A stretch of DNA of 64,000 nt from Gemmobacter caeni (GTDB lineage Bacteria; Pseudomonadota; Alphaproteobacteria; Rhodobacterales; Rhodobacteraceae). Shown here piece after piece: positions 55,378 to 64,000 of this stretch. Below the pieces are notes generated by a model. It was not told the origin of the DNA, did no database searches, and saw nothing but the letters and a program-made list of their open reading frames with translations. Both the position numbers and the translations under genes were made by a program. Each line of letters starts with the position of its first letter. Within the stretch, counting starts at the first letter, position 1. The stretch lies in contig NZ_QBKP01000006.1 of the NCBI RefSeq assembly GCF_003054195.1, positions 1 to 64,000 on the forward strand. The letters run 5' to 3'.

Positions 55378-56274
55378 TCAGACCAGGATGGTATCCTCGC
55401 TGGCCAGCAGGTCGGCCAGATCAATCCCCCGCAGAAGGATGCTGGCCTGCCGGATCGTCAACAGCGTGCCATTGTCCACCTGCTCCGGCCGGAGTTGCGC
55501 ATTGCCGATCATGTCGATCACATCGACCCCGATCACGAAATCCATGACGACATCACGACCACCCCCCGCACGCAGCACGAAAGTATCGGCCCCGGCCCCG
55601 CCTTTCAGCACGTCATTGCCGGAGCCCCCTTCCAGCCGGTCGCGCCCGGCGCCGCCCTCCAGCCGGTCCCTGCCACTGCCACCGATCAGCGTATCATGCC
55701 CGCTCCCGCCAAAAACCGTATCCCGGCCCGCGCCAGCCCGTGCCACATCATTGCCGGCGCCCAGGCTGATGCGGTTGTCGCCCGAAAGATCCAGCTGCGC
55801 GAAAGCCGAAAACAGGGAACGGTCGAAACGATCATTGGCCCGCGTCCCGTCGATCCGCAGGTCATCCTGCCCCAGCAGAAGCCGCGCCAGCCCGGCGCCG
55901 TCCTCGCTGTTGACAATGGACAACACCACATCCGCCGGATCAACCGACAGGCCATCAAAGCTGATGATACTCCGCCCGCTGAGCGCCGAAACCAGTTCGA
56001 TGGCCTTGACCGAACCGGGGGCCTGGTTCGACAGGGCCTGCAAACCGCCCTTGTCGGCATCAAACCGGGTTGCCGTGCTGAACCGGCCGGTAATCTTCAG
56101 GTCGAACAGGCCGTCGCGGTCATAGGTCCATTCCCGCAAGCCGCCCTCCAGCACCTGCTCCGACGGCGCGGGCACATTCGGCCGCTCGCCCGTGCGTTCC
56201 AGGATGAATTGCATATCGTCGAAAAGACCCGCGAGCTTGCGGCCAAAAGACGCCGCGAAGGAAAGTCTGGGCAT
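55378..56274 (-). CDS. Short RTX (hemolysin-type calcium-binding) protein
   Basis: A 298-residue protein. Residues about 170-236 hold seven GGxGxDxxx-type nonapeptides (GAGNDVARAG, GSGHDTLIGG, GSGRDRLEGG, GAGRDRLEGG, GSGNDVLKGG, GAGADTFVLR), forming a Ca2+-binding beta roll. The first 165 residues and the last 60 (VIGVDVIDMIGNAQLRPEQV) are less familiar; the end could be a type I secretion signal, as there is no N-terminal signal peptide. No type I secretion genes are adjacent. Confidence 0.85.
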   Translation of the reverse strand: MPRLSFAASFGRKLAGLFDDMQFILERTGERPNVPAPSEQVLEGGLREWTYDRDGLFDLKITGRFSTATRFDADKGGLQALSNQAPGSVKAIELVSALSGRSIISFDGLSVDPADVVLSIVNSEDGAGLARLLLGQDDLRIDGTRANDRFDRSLFSAFAQLDLSGDNRISLGAGNDVARAGAGRDTVFGGSGHDTLIGGSGRDRLEGGAGRDRLEGGSGNDVLKGGAGADTFVLRAGGGRDVVMDFVIGVDVIDMIGNAQLRPEQVDNGTLLTIRQASILLRGIDLADLLASEDTILV

Positions 56275-59436: not shown

Positions 59437-59466
59437 TATAATCAGTAGCGTGGCGCCCGCCACGCT
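59437..59466 (+). promoter_or_regulatory. -10 box plus inverted repeat at the start of the XpaC-TelA operon
   Basis: Exact TATAAT at 59437-59442, with only a weak -35. Four bases later the perfect inverted repeat AGCGTGGC-GCCC-GCCACGCT (59447-59466) covers the predicted transcription start (about 59449). It could be a repressor operator or a 5' stabilising hairpin. Confidence 0.6.
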
Positions 59467-59492
59467 GGCTTGACCCTGCCCCCGGAGGCCCG

Positions 59493-59576
59493 ATGCCCGC
59501 ATCCGCCATCCAAAGCTTCAGCTTCATCCTGTTGATGGCGCTTGTGCTTTATGTCGCATTTGCCGGAGGCGCCTGA
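59493..59576 (+). CDS. Putative 27-residue membrane microprotein
   Basis: ATG at 59493 with GGAGG six bases upstream. The product begins MPASAIQSF and consists mostly of one hydrophobic span, SFILLMALVLYVAFAGGA. Its TGA at 59574-59576 is one base from the xpaC ATG at 59578, and its last codons contain the xpaC ribosome site GGAGG, so the two would be coupled. I do not know a family. It may instead be a leader peptide. Confidence 0.5.
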   Translation: MPASAIQSFSFILLMALVLYVAFAGGA

Positions 59577-59577
59577 G

Positions 59578-60486
59578 ATGGCGCTGCGTTTCGGTGGCAA
59601 ATATTCCCCGACCGGCGAGGTGCAGCGCGATCACGCCGCCGCCCCGCCGCAACAGCCCGCCAATCCGTTCGACAGCCGCCGCCCGGTGCGGGCCGGCGCG
59701 CGCTCGAACCTTCTGTTCGCGGTGCCGGTGATCTTTGCCTTCCAGGCTTTCCGCGCCGATCCGGCCGGGCTGGTGTTCGGCCTTGCCGCGACCGGGTTCA
59801 GCCTCGGCGCGGCCTGGCTGACGCGGGAAGGCATCCGCGCGCAGGAGGCCTATGACCAGCGCCGCGTCGCCAAACGCCCCGCCTTCCCGCGCAAGATCGC
59901 AGGCGCCGTGCTGACCGGGCTTGGCCTTGCCGCCGCAGGTATGATGACCACCGGCGCACCGCTGCTGGCAGTCGTGTTCGGCGTCATCGGCACTGCGCTG
60001 CATCTGGGCGCCTTCGGGCTTGACCCGCTGCGGGATAAAGGCGCCGAGGGGATCGATGCCTTCCAGACAGAACGCGTCGCCCGCGCCGTGGACGAGGCCG
60101 AGGCCTATCTGGCAGCCATGAAAGACGCGATCCTGCGCGCCCGCGACCGCGCACTGGAAGCGCGGGTGGATCGTTTCACAGCCGCTGCGCGCCAGTTGTT
60201 CCGCATGGTCGAAAACGATCCCGGTGACCTGTCCGCCGCGCGCAAATACATGACCGTCTATCTGATGGGCGCGCGCGATGCGACGGTGCGCTTTGCCGAT
60301 CTTTACGCGCAGAACCGCGACCCGAAGGCGCGCGGCGATTACGAGGCGCTTCTGGCGGATCTTGAAACCAATTTCGCGGGCCGCACCAAGGCTTTGCTGG
60401 CAAATGACGCAAACGCACTGGATGTCGAGATTCAGGTGCTGCGCGAGAGGCTGGAGTACGAGACGCCCAAAGCGGACCGCGCCTGA
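59578..60486 (+). CDS. xpaC: XpaC-family protein (5-bromo-4-chloroindolyl phosphate hydrolysis family)
   Basis: A 302-residue protein. After a polar N-terminus come paired hydrophobic segments at about 44-80 (NLLFAVPVIFAFQAFRADPA, LVFGLAATGFSLGAAW) and 107-145 (GAVLTGLGLAAAGMMTTGAP), then a helical domain (DEAEAYLAAMKDAILRARDR, GARDATVRFADLYAQN). In Bacillus xpaC is co-transcribed with the telA homologue yaaN; the biochemical role is unknown. telA follows here too. Confidence 0.85.
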   Translation: MALRFGGKYSPTGEVQRDHAAAPPQQPANPFDSRRPVRAGARSNLLFAVPVIFAFQAFRADPAGLVFGLAATGFSLGAAWLTREGIRAQEAYDQRRVAKRPAFPRKIAGAVLTGLGLAAAGMMTTGAPLLAVVFGVIGTALHLGAFGLDPLRDKGAEGIDAFQTERVARAVDEAEAYLAAMKDAILRARDRALEARVDRFTAAARQLFRMVENDPGDLSAARKYMTVYLMGARDATVRFADLYAQNRDPKARGDYEALLADLETNFAGRTKALLANDANALDVEIQVLRERLEYETPKADRA

Positions 60487-60570
60487 CGCAAGACCGTTGA
60501 GAAGCCGCGGCACCCTCCGTATAACCGCCACAGTAGCCCGTATCACCGTTTCAAACCCCGTGAGGCCAGA

Positions 60571-61755
60571 ATGACCGAGACCGTTCGCACCGAAGCCGCC
60601 GCCGCCCTGGCGGAAGTGGAGAAAGTCACCGCTGTCGTCCTGCCCGAGCCAGGCACCGAGGTCGTTCCGCTGCAGGCCGCCCCCCCGGCCGAGGCCGCCG
60701 AAATCCGCAGACGGATGGACGAGCTGGACATGACCAATACCCAGTCCATCATCTCGTTCGGCTCGTCCGCGCAGGCCGAGCTTCAGGTCATCAGCCAGCA
60801 GATGCTGGCCGATGTGAAAAACAAGGATGTCGGCCCGGCGGGCGACGGGCTGCGCTCCATGGTTTCGACGTTGCGCGGCTTTTCGGTATCGGAACTGGAC
60901 GTGCGCCGTGAGCGCAGCTGGTGGGAGAAACTGCTGGGCCGCACCGCACCCTTCGCCAAATTCGTGGCGAAATACGAAGAGGTGCAGAGCCAGATTGACC
61001 GTGTGACCACCGACCTGCTGGAGCATGAGCACAAGCTGCTGAAGGACATCAAGTCGCTTGACCTGCTCTATGCCCGCACGCTCGACTTCTACAACGAACT
61101 CGCGCTTTACATCGCGGCGGGCGAGGCCAAGCTGGCCGAACTGGATGCGACTGTGATCCCCGCGAAAGAGGCCGAGGTTGCCGCCGCGCCCGAAAACGAT
61201 CAGGTTCTGAAAGCGCAGGAACTGCGCGACCTGCGCGGCGCCCGTGACGATCTGGAACGCCGCGTGCATGACCTGAAGCTGACCCGTCAGGTGACGATGC
61301 AATCGCTGCCGTCGATCCGACTGGTGCAGGAAAATGACAAGTCGCTGGTCACCAAGATCAACTCGACGCTGGTGAACACCGTGCCGCTGTGGGAAACCCA
61401 GCTGGCGCAGGCAGTCACCATCCAGCGCTCGCGCGAGGCGGCGGGGTCGATCAAGGCGGCAAATGACCTGACGAACGAGCTTCTGACCTCGAACGCCAAG
61501 AACCTGCAGGAAACCAACCGCATCGTCCGCACCGAGATGGAGCGCGGCGTCTTCGACATCGAGGCGGTGAAACAGGCCAATGCCACGCTGATCGCCACGA
61601 TCAACGAAAGCCTCGCCATTGCCGACGAGGGCAAGGCCAAGCGCGCGGCGGCCGAGGCCGATCTGCACAAGATGGAGGCGGAGCTGCGCGACACGCTGGC
61701 TTCGGCCAAGGCCCGGCGCGACGGGCTGGGCACCGCCACCGGCACTTCGGTCTGA
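60571..61755 (+). CDS. telA: TelA/KlaB toxic-anion-resistance family protein
   Basis: A 394-residue, almost entirely helical, soluble protein with coiled-coil stretches: DELDMTNTQSIISFGSSAQA near 50, RSWWEKLLGRTAPFAKFVAK near 115, YIAAGEAKLAELDATVIPAK near 180 and LLTSNAKNLQETNRIVRTEM near 310. TelA proteins were named for plasmid tellurite resistance and also occur in chromosomal membrane-stress clusters. Preceded by xpaC, as in Bacillus. Confidence 0.92.
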   Translation: MTETVRTEAAAALAEVEKVTAVVLPEPGTEVVPLQAAPPAEAAEIRRRMDELDMTNTQSIISFGSSAQAELQVISQQMLADVKNKDVGPAGDGLRSMVSTLRGFSVSELDVRRERSWWEKLLGRTAPFAKFVAKYEEVQSQIDRVTTDLLEHEHKLLKDIKSLDLLYARTLDFYNELALYIAAGEAKLAELDATVIPAKEAEVAAAPENDQVLKAQELRDLRGARDDLERRVHDLKLTRQVTMQSLPSIRLVQENDKSLVTKINSTLVNTVPLWETQLAQAVTIQRSREAAGSIKAANDLTNELLTSNAKNLQETNRIVRTEMERGVFDIEAVKQANATLIATINESLAIADEGKAKRAAAEADLHKMEAELRDTLASAKARRDGLGTATGTSV

Positions 61756-61764
61756 GTTCACATT

Positions 61765-62730
61765 GTGGCAAAGGGGCTGCGCCGTTTTCTTCTGAACCGT
61801 TCCGGCCTCGCCGCGCTGGCGCTGGCGGTCCTGTCGGCTTGCGTGCAGGCTCCTGTCACGCCCGCCCCGCCTGCGACCGGCCCGGCGCCCCGCCCCGCCC
61901 AGCCCCCTGCCCGCCCAGAGGTTTCGGCGGAAAGCCGGGCGCTGGAACATTACTATGCCCAGGTGCAGGCCGATCTTCTGTCGCAGCATCTGCTGCGCAC
62001 CGATGGCGGCGGGGTGGATACGCCCTTCACCGATACGATGCTGACGGAAAACTTCATCCGCATTGCCCTGTTCGATGAATACCGGCGAGGGCCGGGCGGG
62101 TTGGTTGCGCAGGAAACCGCCAGCCGGTTGCGCCGGTGGGATGCGCCGGTACGGATGAAGCTGGTGTTCGGCGCCTCCGTCGCGCCGGACCGCCGTGCCA
62201 CCGACCGGGCGCGCATCGCCTCCTATCTGTCGCGGCTGTCCGCGATCACGGGCCACCCGATCGGGCTGGCAGACAGCAACCCGAATTTCTTCGTCTACAT
62301 GGTGAACGAAGATGAACGCCGCGCACTTGGCCCCGTCATCAGCGCCACCCTGCCGGATCTGTCCGGCCCGGAGGTTGCGGGGCTGACCAATCTGCCGCGT
62401 TCGACCTATTGCATTGTCTATGCGCTGTCAGAGGGGCATTCCTCGACCTACTGGAGGGCTTTTGCGGTCATCCGGGCCGAACATCCCGATCTGCTGCGGC
62501 TGTCCTGCATCCACGAGGAAATCGCGCAGGGGTTGGGGCTTGCCAATGACAGCCCGTTGGCACGCCCGTCGATCTTCAATGACGACGAGGAATTTGCCCT
62601 GCTGACCCGGCAGGACGAGCTGATGCTGAAAATGCTCTACAACCCTGCCCTGCGGCCGGGGATGAGCGCGGCAGAGGCCCGGCCCATCGTGCGCGAGCTG
62701 GCGATGCGGCTGGTCGGCGGCCCAAGCTGA
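61765..62730 (+). CDS. DUF2927 lipoprotein
   Basis: A 321-residue protein with a GTG start at 61765 and a lipobox LALAVLSAC (Cys near 28), then a Pro-rich linker and the DUF2927 domain (FTDTMLTENFIRIALFDEYR, RWDAPVRMKLVFGASVAP, then RLSCIHEEIAQGLGLANDSP with an HEE motif). The HExxQG-like HEEIAQGLGL resembles a metalloprotease helix, which suggests, but does not prove, zinc binding. It starts 9 bases after the telA stop. Confidence 0.82.
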   Translation: MAKGLRRFLLNRSGLAALALAVLSACVQAPVTPAPPATGPAPRPAQPPARPEVSAESRALEHYYAQVQADLLSQHLLRTDGGGVDTPFTDTMLTENFIRIALFDEYRRGPGGLVAQETASRLRRWDAPVRMKLVFGASVAPDRRATDRARIASYLSRLSAITGHPIGLADSNPNFFVYMVNEDERRALGPVISATLPDLSGPEVAGLTNLPRSTYCIVYALSEGHSSTYWRAFAVIRAEHPDLLRLSCIHEEIAQGLGLANDSPLARPSIFNDDEEFALLTRQDELMLKMLYNPALRPGMSAAEARPIVRELAMRLVGGPS

Positions 62731-62874
62731 ACCAGCAGGGCTGCGGGTGCGACGCAATTCCCCCGCAAACCCCCTTCAAACCTCTGTCGCCTCGGCTATG
62801 TTACCCTCATGCAGGACGGGCCCCGTGGCCCGCCCCGGCGCGGCTCTTGCGCCCGGTAACGGAAAGGTTTCGTC

Positions 62875-63984
62875 ATGGTCTTCGATTTTCTGAAGGGCGA
62901 ATTCATCGACGTCATCGCCTGGCTTGATGACAGCCGCGATACGATGGTCTGGCGGTTCGAGCGGCGCGGTCAGGCGATCAAATACGGTGCCAAGCTGACG
63001 GTCCGCGAGGGGCAGGCGGCGGTTTTCGTGCACGAGGGGCAGTTGGCCGACGTGTTTGGTCCCGGCCTTTACATGCTCGAAACCAACAACATGCCGATCA
63101 TGACCACGCTCCAGCACTGGGACCACGGGTTCCAGTCGCCGTTCAAGAGCGAGGTCTATTTCGTCAACACGACCCGTTTCAACGATCTGAAATGGGGCAC
63201 CAAGAACCCGATCATGTGCCGCGATCCCGAATTCGGGCCGGTGCGGCTGCGCGCCTTCGGCACCTATTCGATGCGCGTGTCCGACCCGGCGGTGTTCCTC
63301 AAGGAAATCGTGGGCACCGATGGCGAGTTCACCGCCGACGAGATCAGCTTCCAGATCCGTAACGTCATCGTGCAGGAGATGAGCCGGGTTCTGGCCTCCT
63401 CGGGTATTCCGGTGCTCGACATGGCGGCGAATACCGCCGATCTGGCCAAACTGATCGCCACCGCAATCGCCCCCAAGATCGCCGAATACGGGCTGGTGCT
63501 GCCGGAGTTCTATATCGAGAACGTCAGCCTCCCCGAAGAGGTCGAAAAGGTGCTGGACAAGCGCACCTCGATGGGGATTGCGGGCGATCTGAACAAATAC
63601 ATGCAGTTCAACGCCGCCGAGGCAATGAATGCGCCGGGTGGTGCCATGGGCAGCGCGATGGGCGCCGGGATGGGCGCGGCTCTTGGCATGGGCATGGCGG
63701 GCCAGATGCAACCCGGCCCCTGGGGCGCCGCCCCGCAGGGTGCGGCGGCGGCCCCGCCCCCGCCTCCCCCGCCGCCGACCGCGAAACAGTGGCATGTCGC
63801 CGAGAATGGCGCGACGAAAGGTCCGTTCACCGAAGCAGAGCTGCAAGCCATGGCGCTGTCGGGCGGGCTGTCGCGCGACAGCATGGTCTGGACCGCCGGT
63901 CAGGACGGCTGGAAAACCGCCGCCGACACCGAACTCAGCCGCCTTTTCGCGCAGGTGCCCCCACCCCCGCCGCCCGGAGCCTGA
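62875..63984 (+). CDS. SPFH/Band-7 protein (YdjI-like) with C-terminal GYF-like domain
   Basis: A 369-residue protein. Residues 1-240 are the SPFH domain of the COG4260/YdjI type (VIAWLDDSRDTMVWRFERRG, VREGQAAVFVHEGQLADVFG, GLVLPEFYIENVSLPEEVEK). Residues 250-285 are Gly/Met-rich (SAMGAGMGAALGMGMAGQM), followed by a polyproline run and, at about 303-357, a GYF_2-like domain (KQWHVAENGATKGPFTEAEL, SRDSMVWTAGQDGWKTAA). Such proteins oligomerise on membranes. No transmembrane span. Probably part of the same operon or served by its own promoter in the 144-base gap. Confidence 0.86.
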   Translation: MVFDFLKGEFIDVIAWLDDSRDTMVWRFERRGQAIKYGAKLTVREGQAAVFVHEGQLADVFGPGLYMLETNNMPIMTTLQHWDHGFQSPFKSEVYFVNTTRFNDLKWGTKNPIMCRDPEFGPVRLRAFGTYSMRVSDPAVFLKEIVGTDGEFTADEISFQIRNVIVQEMSRVLASSGIPVLDMAANTADLAKLIATAIAPKIAEYGLVLPEFYIENVSLPEEVEKVLDKRTSMGIAGDLNKYMQFNAAEAMNAPGGAMGSAMGAGMGAALGMGMAGQMQPGPWGAAPQGAAAAPPPPPPPPTAKQWHVAENGATKGPFTEAELQAMALSGGLSRDSMVWTAGQDGWKTAADTELSRLFAQVPPPPPPGA

Positions 63985-63987
63985 GCC

Positions 63988-64000
63988 TTGGACGGAACCG
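63988..64000 (+). CDS. Possible next gene, start only
   Basis: TTG GAC GGA ACC begins 3 bases after the SPFH stop with GGAG upstream. Too short to classify. Confidence 0.25.

Follow-up and report, generated by a model that had tools for sequence, protein, structure and literature searches.

In Bacillus subtilis, the SPFH protein YdjI takes PspA to the membrane together with the membrane proteins YdjG and YdjH, and deletion of YdjI reduces membrane fluidity, according to the accessible part of one report (PMC8581546). The accessible text of a second describes YdjG as carrying two zinc ribbons and a transmembrane segment, and assigns a C-terminal zinc ribbon to the band-7 protein, which it calls YdjL (PMC11237479). 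A different pair, XpaC followed directly by TelA, is encoded by xpaC-yaaN (telA) of B. subtilis and by lmo1966-lmo1967 of Listeria. In the available part of the Listeria study, disruption of telA increased susceptibility to nisin 4-fold and to tellurite 2-fold, a bacteriocin slightly induced the XpaC and TelA genes, and the mechanism of TelA was called not known (PMC12791056). The telA gene of Rhodobacter sphaeroides is listed as a chromosomal tellurite determinant, with reference to O'Gara 1997, in the portion available of PMC6955997. Here we describe a gene cluster of Gemmobacter caeni in which counterparts of YdjI and YdjG stand beside XpaC and TelA. It lies at the end of the first 64,000 nucleotides of contig NZ_QBKP01000006.1 (the whole stretch analysed, hereafter the window), is kept in fixed order across Rhodobacterales, opens with a conserved microprotein gene and has a core to which a DUF2927 lipoprotein has been added in this order or from which it was lost elsewhere. 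A literature search that covered few subscription papers returned no description of the cluster, and nothing on DUF2927 or on the long product names taken jointly.

A preliminary description, made from the nucleotide sequence by itself, had proposed XpaC, TelA, DUF2927 and SPFH/GYF genes running in one direction. All four are confirmed by Pfam models on the forward strand, and the features of the cluster are as follows.

59493-59576, + strand: one-helix membrane microprotein of 27 amino acids, first gene of the cluster (open reading frame, profile conservation, substitution ratios)
59578-60486, + strand: XpaC family protein (PF10112, E 3.9e-23, 82.9 bits against a curated cut-off of 29.8)
60571-61755, + strand: TelA family protein (PF05816, E 4.6e-105, 351.8 bits against a curated cut-off of 30)
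61765-62730, + strand: DUF2927 lipoprotein (PF11150, E 2e-63), metzincin fold predicted
61840-61842, + strand: lipobox Cys26 of the DUF2927 lipoprotein, invariant in 64 aligned sequences
62512-62550, + strand: motif HEEIAQGLGLAND, residues 250-262 of the DUF2927 lipoprotein, of the form C-x-HEE-xx-Q
62875-63984, + strand: YdjI-like SPFH protein (Band_7_1, PF13421, E 2e-103)
63790-63927, + strand: C-terminal GYF_2 domain of the SPFH protein (PF14237, E 1.5e-17, 63.5 bits against a curated cut-off of 25.8)
63988-65088 of the contig, 63988-64000 within the window, + strand: fifth gene, YdjG-like protein with zinc ribbons and a transmembrane segment (TTG start, uncertain)

The window takes in only the first 13 bases of the fifth gene, which begins 3 bases past the SPFH stop codon. 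TelA and the SPFH protein are each the sole match of their kind in the genome, and the named relatives closest to the window TelA, among the matches listed, are Gemmobacter species with 84-87% identity. A simple hydrophobicity scan found no membrane stretch in TelA, and a hydrophobic N-terminal half in XpaC, with hydrophobic stretches inside residues 115-149. A promoter consensus scan, barely informative for this GC-rich group, gave one site, inside TelA, where 0.6 are expected by chance. PADLOC returned no match at E 0.01 for any of the five cluster proteins.

Compared with pspA-ydjGHI of B. subtilis, the window cluster has a YdjI-type SPFH protein and, beside it, a protein with two ribbons and a transmembrane segment that resembles YdjG as described in the accessible text (PMC11237479). 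It differs in having TelA and XpaC where Bacillus has PspA and the TPM protein YdjH, in an SPFH tail that is a GYF_2 domain instead of a zinc ribbon, and in the additional DUF2927 and microprotein genes. As in xpaC-yaaN and, in the available part of the source, lmo1966-lmo1967 (PMC12791056), XpaC is followed directly by TelA, whereas the annotation of the 6 kb surrounding the B. subtilis pair shows no SPFH, zinc-ribbon or DUF2927 gene. An operon of Enterococcus gallinarum likewise has an SPFH gene and then, as its middle gene, a homologue of the window's zinc-ribbon protein (26% identity, E 1e-27), but there a TPM protein follows, and no TelA, XpaC or DUF2927 is annotated in 11 kb.

The order Rhodobacterales was sampled with 149 genomes from 73 genera, and TelA was matched at E 1e-3 in 147 of them, in one case (G085) only as fragments. 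Around each match some 20 kb, less at contig ends, was read and searched with neighbour profiles built from the window proteins, which gave DUF2927 and SPFH in 141 loci each, XpaC in 140 and the zinc-ribbon protein in 127. The arrangement is not limited to close strains: XpaC, TelA, DUF2927 and SPFH stand in this order on the same strand in 132 of the 147 loci and 66 of 72 genera, and the zinc-ribbon gene joins the ordered four in 118 loci from 61 genera. DUF2927 is not at the locus in four genomes, of genera g9 and g18, and an annotated Paracoccus record lacks XpaC at its cluster locus; the plasmid record whose cluster is nearest to that of the window is unannotated. A second sample, of named loci, took the best 80 of 583 confirmed relatives and overlaps in species with the first. 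Of these 80 loci, 76 carry all four genes on the + strand, two are broken off by contig ends before XpaC, and two have the SPFH and zinc-ribbon genes inverted. With start codons picked by script, gaps of -30 to 60 nt separate XpaC from TelA in 70 of 78 named loci, TelA from DUF2927 in 67 of 80 and DUF2927 from SPFH in 47 of 73, and SPFH from the zinc-ribbon gene in only 25 of 69. Same-strand genes for small membrane proteins, cytochrome b561-like by eye, occupy the last of these gaps in several loci (L068, L104, L115).

The microprotein, which had been put forward as a possibility, is a genuine coding gene conserved throughout the order. Short hydrophobic frames end near the XpaC start in 108 of 140 loci, and a profile run against the short frames that precede TelA recovered the microprotein in 136 of 147 loci and 68 of 72 genera; on the opposite strand of the 147 loci the same profile gave no match at E 0.01. 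The window copy, whose stop codon ends one base ahead of the XpaC ATG, is the single match in its whole genome (E 6.8e-10). The nearest XpaC start overlaps the microprotein stop by one base in 63 of the 136 loci and lies 0-4 bases past it in a further 70. It is present in 77 of the 80 named loci; L222, L239 and L259, where it was missed, start too near TelA to include the site. The ratio of nonsynonymous to synonymous substitution (dN/dS) was calculated from 75 named and window sequences, less 13 of other lengths, as 14 independent pairs of the 27-residue forms and 12 of the 29-residue forms. In frame the ratios are 0.24 and 0.15, respectively, against 1.1-2.7 and 1.6-3.3 in the other two frames. 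Synonymous changes number 138 of 262 and 130 of 204, where shuffling gave means of 78 and 58, and 0 of 500 shuffles reached the observed values. Since it keeps the same position in so many loci and shows such low in-frame ratios, the microprotein is more than a chance open reading frame. It may be an overlooked subunit. Searches of Pfam and NCBIfam with six of the sequences (four long, two short) gave no match at cut-off. The microprotein segment forms the end of a Met-started frame of 60-80 amino acids in up to 33 of the 136 loci, and many of these longer frames show a second hydrophobic stretch by eye.

Eleven loci are without the microprotein. Six belong to genus g7 and are also without XpaC at the locus; in one genome of this genus (G048) the microprotein (C23:339986-340063) adjoins XpaC (C23:340476-340922) away from the TelA locus. 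Of the remaining five, one is a decayed cluster (G085) and one lies at a contig end (G137), and in the other three (G088, G110, G141) the profile found nothing in the whole genome.

Better evidence of a shared function than gene order alone comes from genomes in which most of the cluster is missing or in which it is broken up. Three of the 149 are without an intact TelA (G011, G106, G085), and in all three XpaC, an SPFH protein above cut-off and the zinc-ribbon gene are missing as well. G048 keeps every part, but on three contigs: microprotein with XpaC, TelA with DUF2927, and SPFH with the zinc-ribbon gene. The cluster is thus modular, as this splitting into pairs and the inversion in two named loci demonstrate. 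The constant order, the common absences and the survival of every part after break-up together tie TelA and XpaC to the YdjI/YdjG-like pair.

Beyond the order, TelA was found in 14 of 144 genomes of a class-wide sample, three of these from Rhodobacterales; nine strong matches outside the order were examined and two weak ones (G199, G225) omitted. Six of the nine (G193, G259, G247, G181, G151, G275) have XpaC no more than 2 kb from TelA, downstream of it in G151, G275 and G181. In three families (G193, G259, G247) SPFH and then zinc-ribbon genes follow TelA on the same strand, and in none of the nine genomes is there a DUF2927 match. The preliminary description had counted DUF2927 as a member of the combination. 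Three other alphaproteobacterial families keep XpaC, TelA, SPFH and zinc-ribbon genes without it, and therefore the core is these four; DUF2927 either joined them, between TelA and SPFH, on the Rhodobacterales branch or disappeared elsewhere. The nine genomes also gave no convincing microprotein match, which for a short profile of 31 positions is weak evidence of absence; two weak matches (E 0.06 and 0.15) lie off the TelA contig.

The DUF2927 lipoprotein has a recognised lipobox in 62 of 64 aligned sequences. Sorting of lipoproteins between the inner and the outer membrane depends in part on residue +2 after the lipobox Cys. This residue is mixed (D in 16 and E in 14 of the 62, V in the window protein), and for this reason the rule does not settle the placement. 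The HEE motif noticed at the outset holds up, as C-x-HEE-xx-Q is present in 63 of the 64 sequences. The predicted fold of the domain is that of metzincins such as the matrix metalloproteinases and karilysin, but HExxH, and with it the metzincin zinc signature HExxHxxGxxH/D, occurs in 0 of 64. A DUF2927 profile searched against PDB sequences found no peptidase; its nine matches up to E 10 are unrelated, the best at E 0.3. An ordinary zinc protease is ruled out by the missing signature and the lack of a PDB peptidase match. An active envelope metalloprotease with an altered metal site, which would make the cluster one for proteolytic signalling or quality control, seems highly improbable on the same two counts, and also because the core persists without DUF2927 in three other families. 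A predicted metzincin-fold domain devoid of the zinc histidines is more likely to serve binding or sensing than proteolysis. The window's genome encodes a second DUF2927 lipoprotein (C1:194109-194711), with an extra C-terminal part and HEEIAQ kept, and the product of an adjoining gene looks VWA/CoxE-like by eye.

In the SPFH protein a simple scan found no signal or membrane stretch. All 37 relatives scanned carry the GYF_2 tail (E 0.001), and 35 have PPPP within their last 14 residues. The GYF domain had been cast as a reader within a combination spanning the membrane; that it reads DUF2927 is unlikely because the SPFH protein has neither signal nor membrane stretch and DUF2927 is exported. 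As judged from the residue pattern, the domain may instead bind the protein's own proline tail. Tails are not uniform elsewhere: GYF_2 in a Vibrio record, HTH_17 in the SPFH protein beside a zinc-ribbon protein on a Comamonas odontotermitis plasmid (L264), and zinc-ribbon matches in Enterococcus. On plasmid p1ST2 of Vibrio sp. (L266) two divergent genes, one of them for a TIR-domain protein, stand 0.8 kb away from the SPFH-GYF_2 and zinc-ribbon genes. The product of the fifth gene, of 366 amino acids, gives weak zinc-ribbon matches and has a beta-rich domain. Its eight cysteines, in four C-x2-C pairs corresponding to two zinc ribbons, are invariant in 59 relatives, and the model of one relative predicts a hydrophobic C-terminal helix at residues 338-361.

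With middling confidence, and by analogy with PspA-YdjGHI of Bacillus, we favour the view that the cluster encodes an inner-membrane surveillance and protection complex without PspA, in which TelA would take the place of PspA. This rests on the conserved order, the joint absences and the break-up in G048, on the core kept in three other families, on the counterparts of YdjI and YdjG and the Enterococcus homologue of the latter, on the absence of a PspA match (PF04012, E 1e-3) from the window's genome, and on the Listeria telA phenotypes. The YdjG-like protein, anchored by its C-terminal helix with the ribbons in the cytoplasm, would form a membrane receptor with XpaC and the microprotein. On it the SPFH protein would build an oligomeric scaffold, whose GYF domains may hold the proline tails of adjacent subunits, and the scaffold would bring soluble TelA to a perturbed membrane and so give protection from membrane-active agents and oxyanions. 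The DUF2927 lipoprotein would be a part added in Rhodobacterales, a pseudo-metzincin domain for binding or sensing, located in the periplasm or on the inner membrane's outer face. The preliminary description had likewise thought of an envelope-stress system; its conserved unit, its microprotein and the likeness of the parts to membrane-stress partners stand, while DUF2927 is not part of the core and is unlikely to be read by the GYF domain.

Several observations weigh against such a complex. A PspA match is missing from 101 of the 149 order genomes and present in 48, so that TelA is not a simple replacement everywhere, and no TPM partner was seen among the cluster genes, no genome-wide TPM search having been made. 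DUF2927 is retained in G011 and G106, though not in G085, which suggests a function of its own; in G011 it sits at a contig end, and an assembly gap may contribute. The remaining points concern separability. The SPFH and zinc-ribbon genes are inverted directly downstream of DUF2927 in Gemmobacter caeruleus (L182) and G. serpentinus (L183). They are separated from TelA in G048, in G110, where order is kept with TelA about 11 kb away from SPFH, the zinc-ribbon gene and two copies of DUF2927, and in G275, where the two adjoin each other on a different contig from XpaC and TelA. They also occur without adjacent TelA in the Vibrio, Comamonas and Enterococcus records. With the B. subtilis record, in which xpaC-yaaN has no SPFH gene adjacent, the inversions, the separate contigs of G275 and these three records would suit two independent neighbours, a TelA-XpaC tolerance unit and an SPFH/zinc-ribbon scaffold, linked by co-regulation and by no shared complex. 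We consider this rather unlikely, given that 66 of 72 genera share the order, that the parts are absent together from G011, G106 and G085, and that all of them are retained after the break-up in G048.

The name of TelA suggests yet another interpretation, a locus mainly for resistance to tellurite or other oxyanions. The R. sphaeroides gene listed among tellurite determinants, in the available part of that source (PMC6955997), is presumably that of this locus. A general role accounts better for the presence of TelA in 147 of 149 order genomes than does resistance to a rare oxyanion, and the effect on nisin in Listeria exceeds that on tellurite in the accessible text (PMC12791056); we regard a dedicated resistance locus as very doubtful.

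TelA and XpaC are widespread and were named from side observations, and their link to the YdjI/YdjG-like pair provides concrete partners for tests in genetically tractable bacteria. The microprotein adds a membrane peptide conserved across an order, and for DUF2927 both the predicted fold and the altered active site can now be put to the test. A bolder version of the surveillance complex, which we put forward only tentatively and think improbable as a whole, is a PspA-independent membrane-repair machine core to Rhodobacterales, with TelA as effector, XpaC and an obligate microprotein as loaders, the SPFH and ribbon proteins as scaffold and the pseudo-metzincin lipoprotein as damage sensor on the outer side. 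If this were true, 'toxic anion resistance' would name only a side effect.

Elsewhere in the window, an open frame on the - strand (55378-56274) has glycine/aspartate-rich repeats that look RTX-like by eye.

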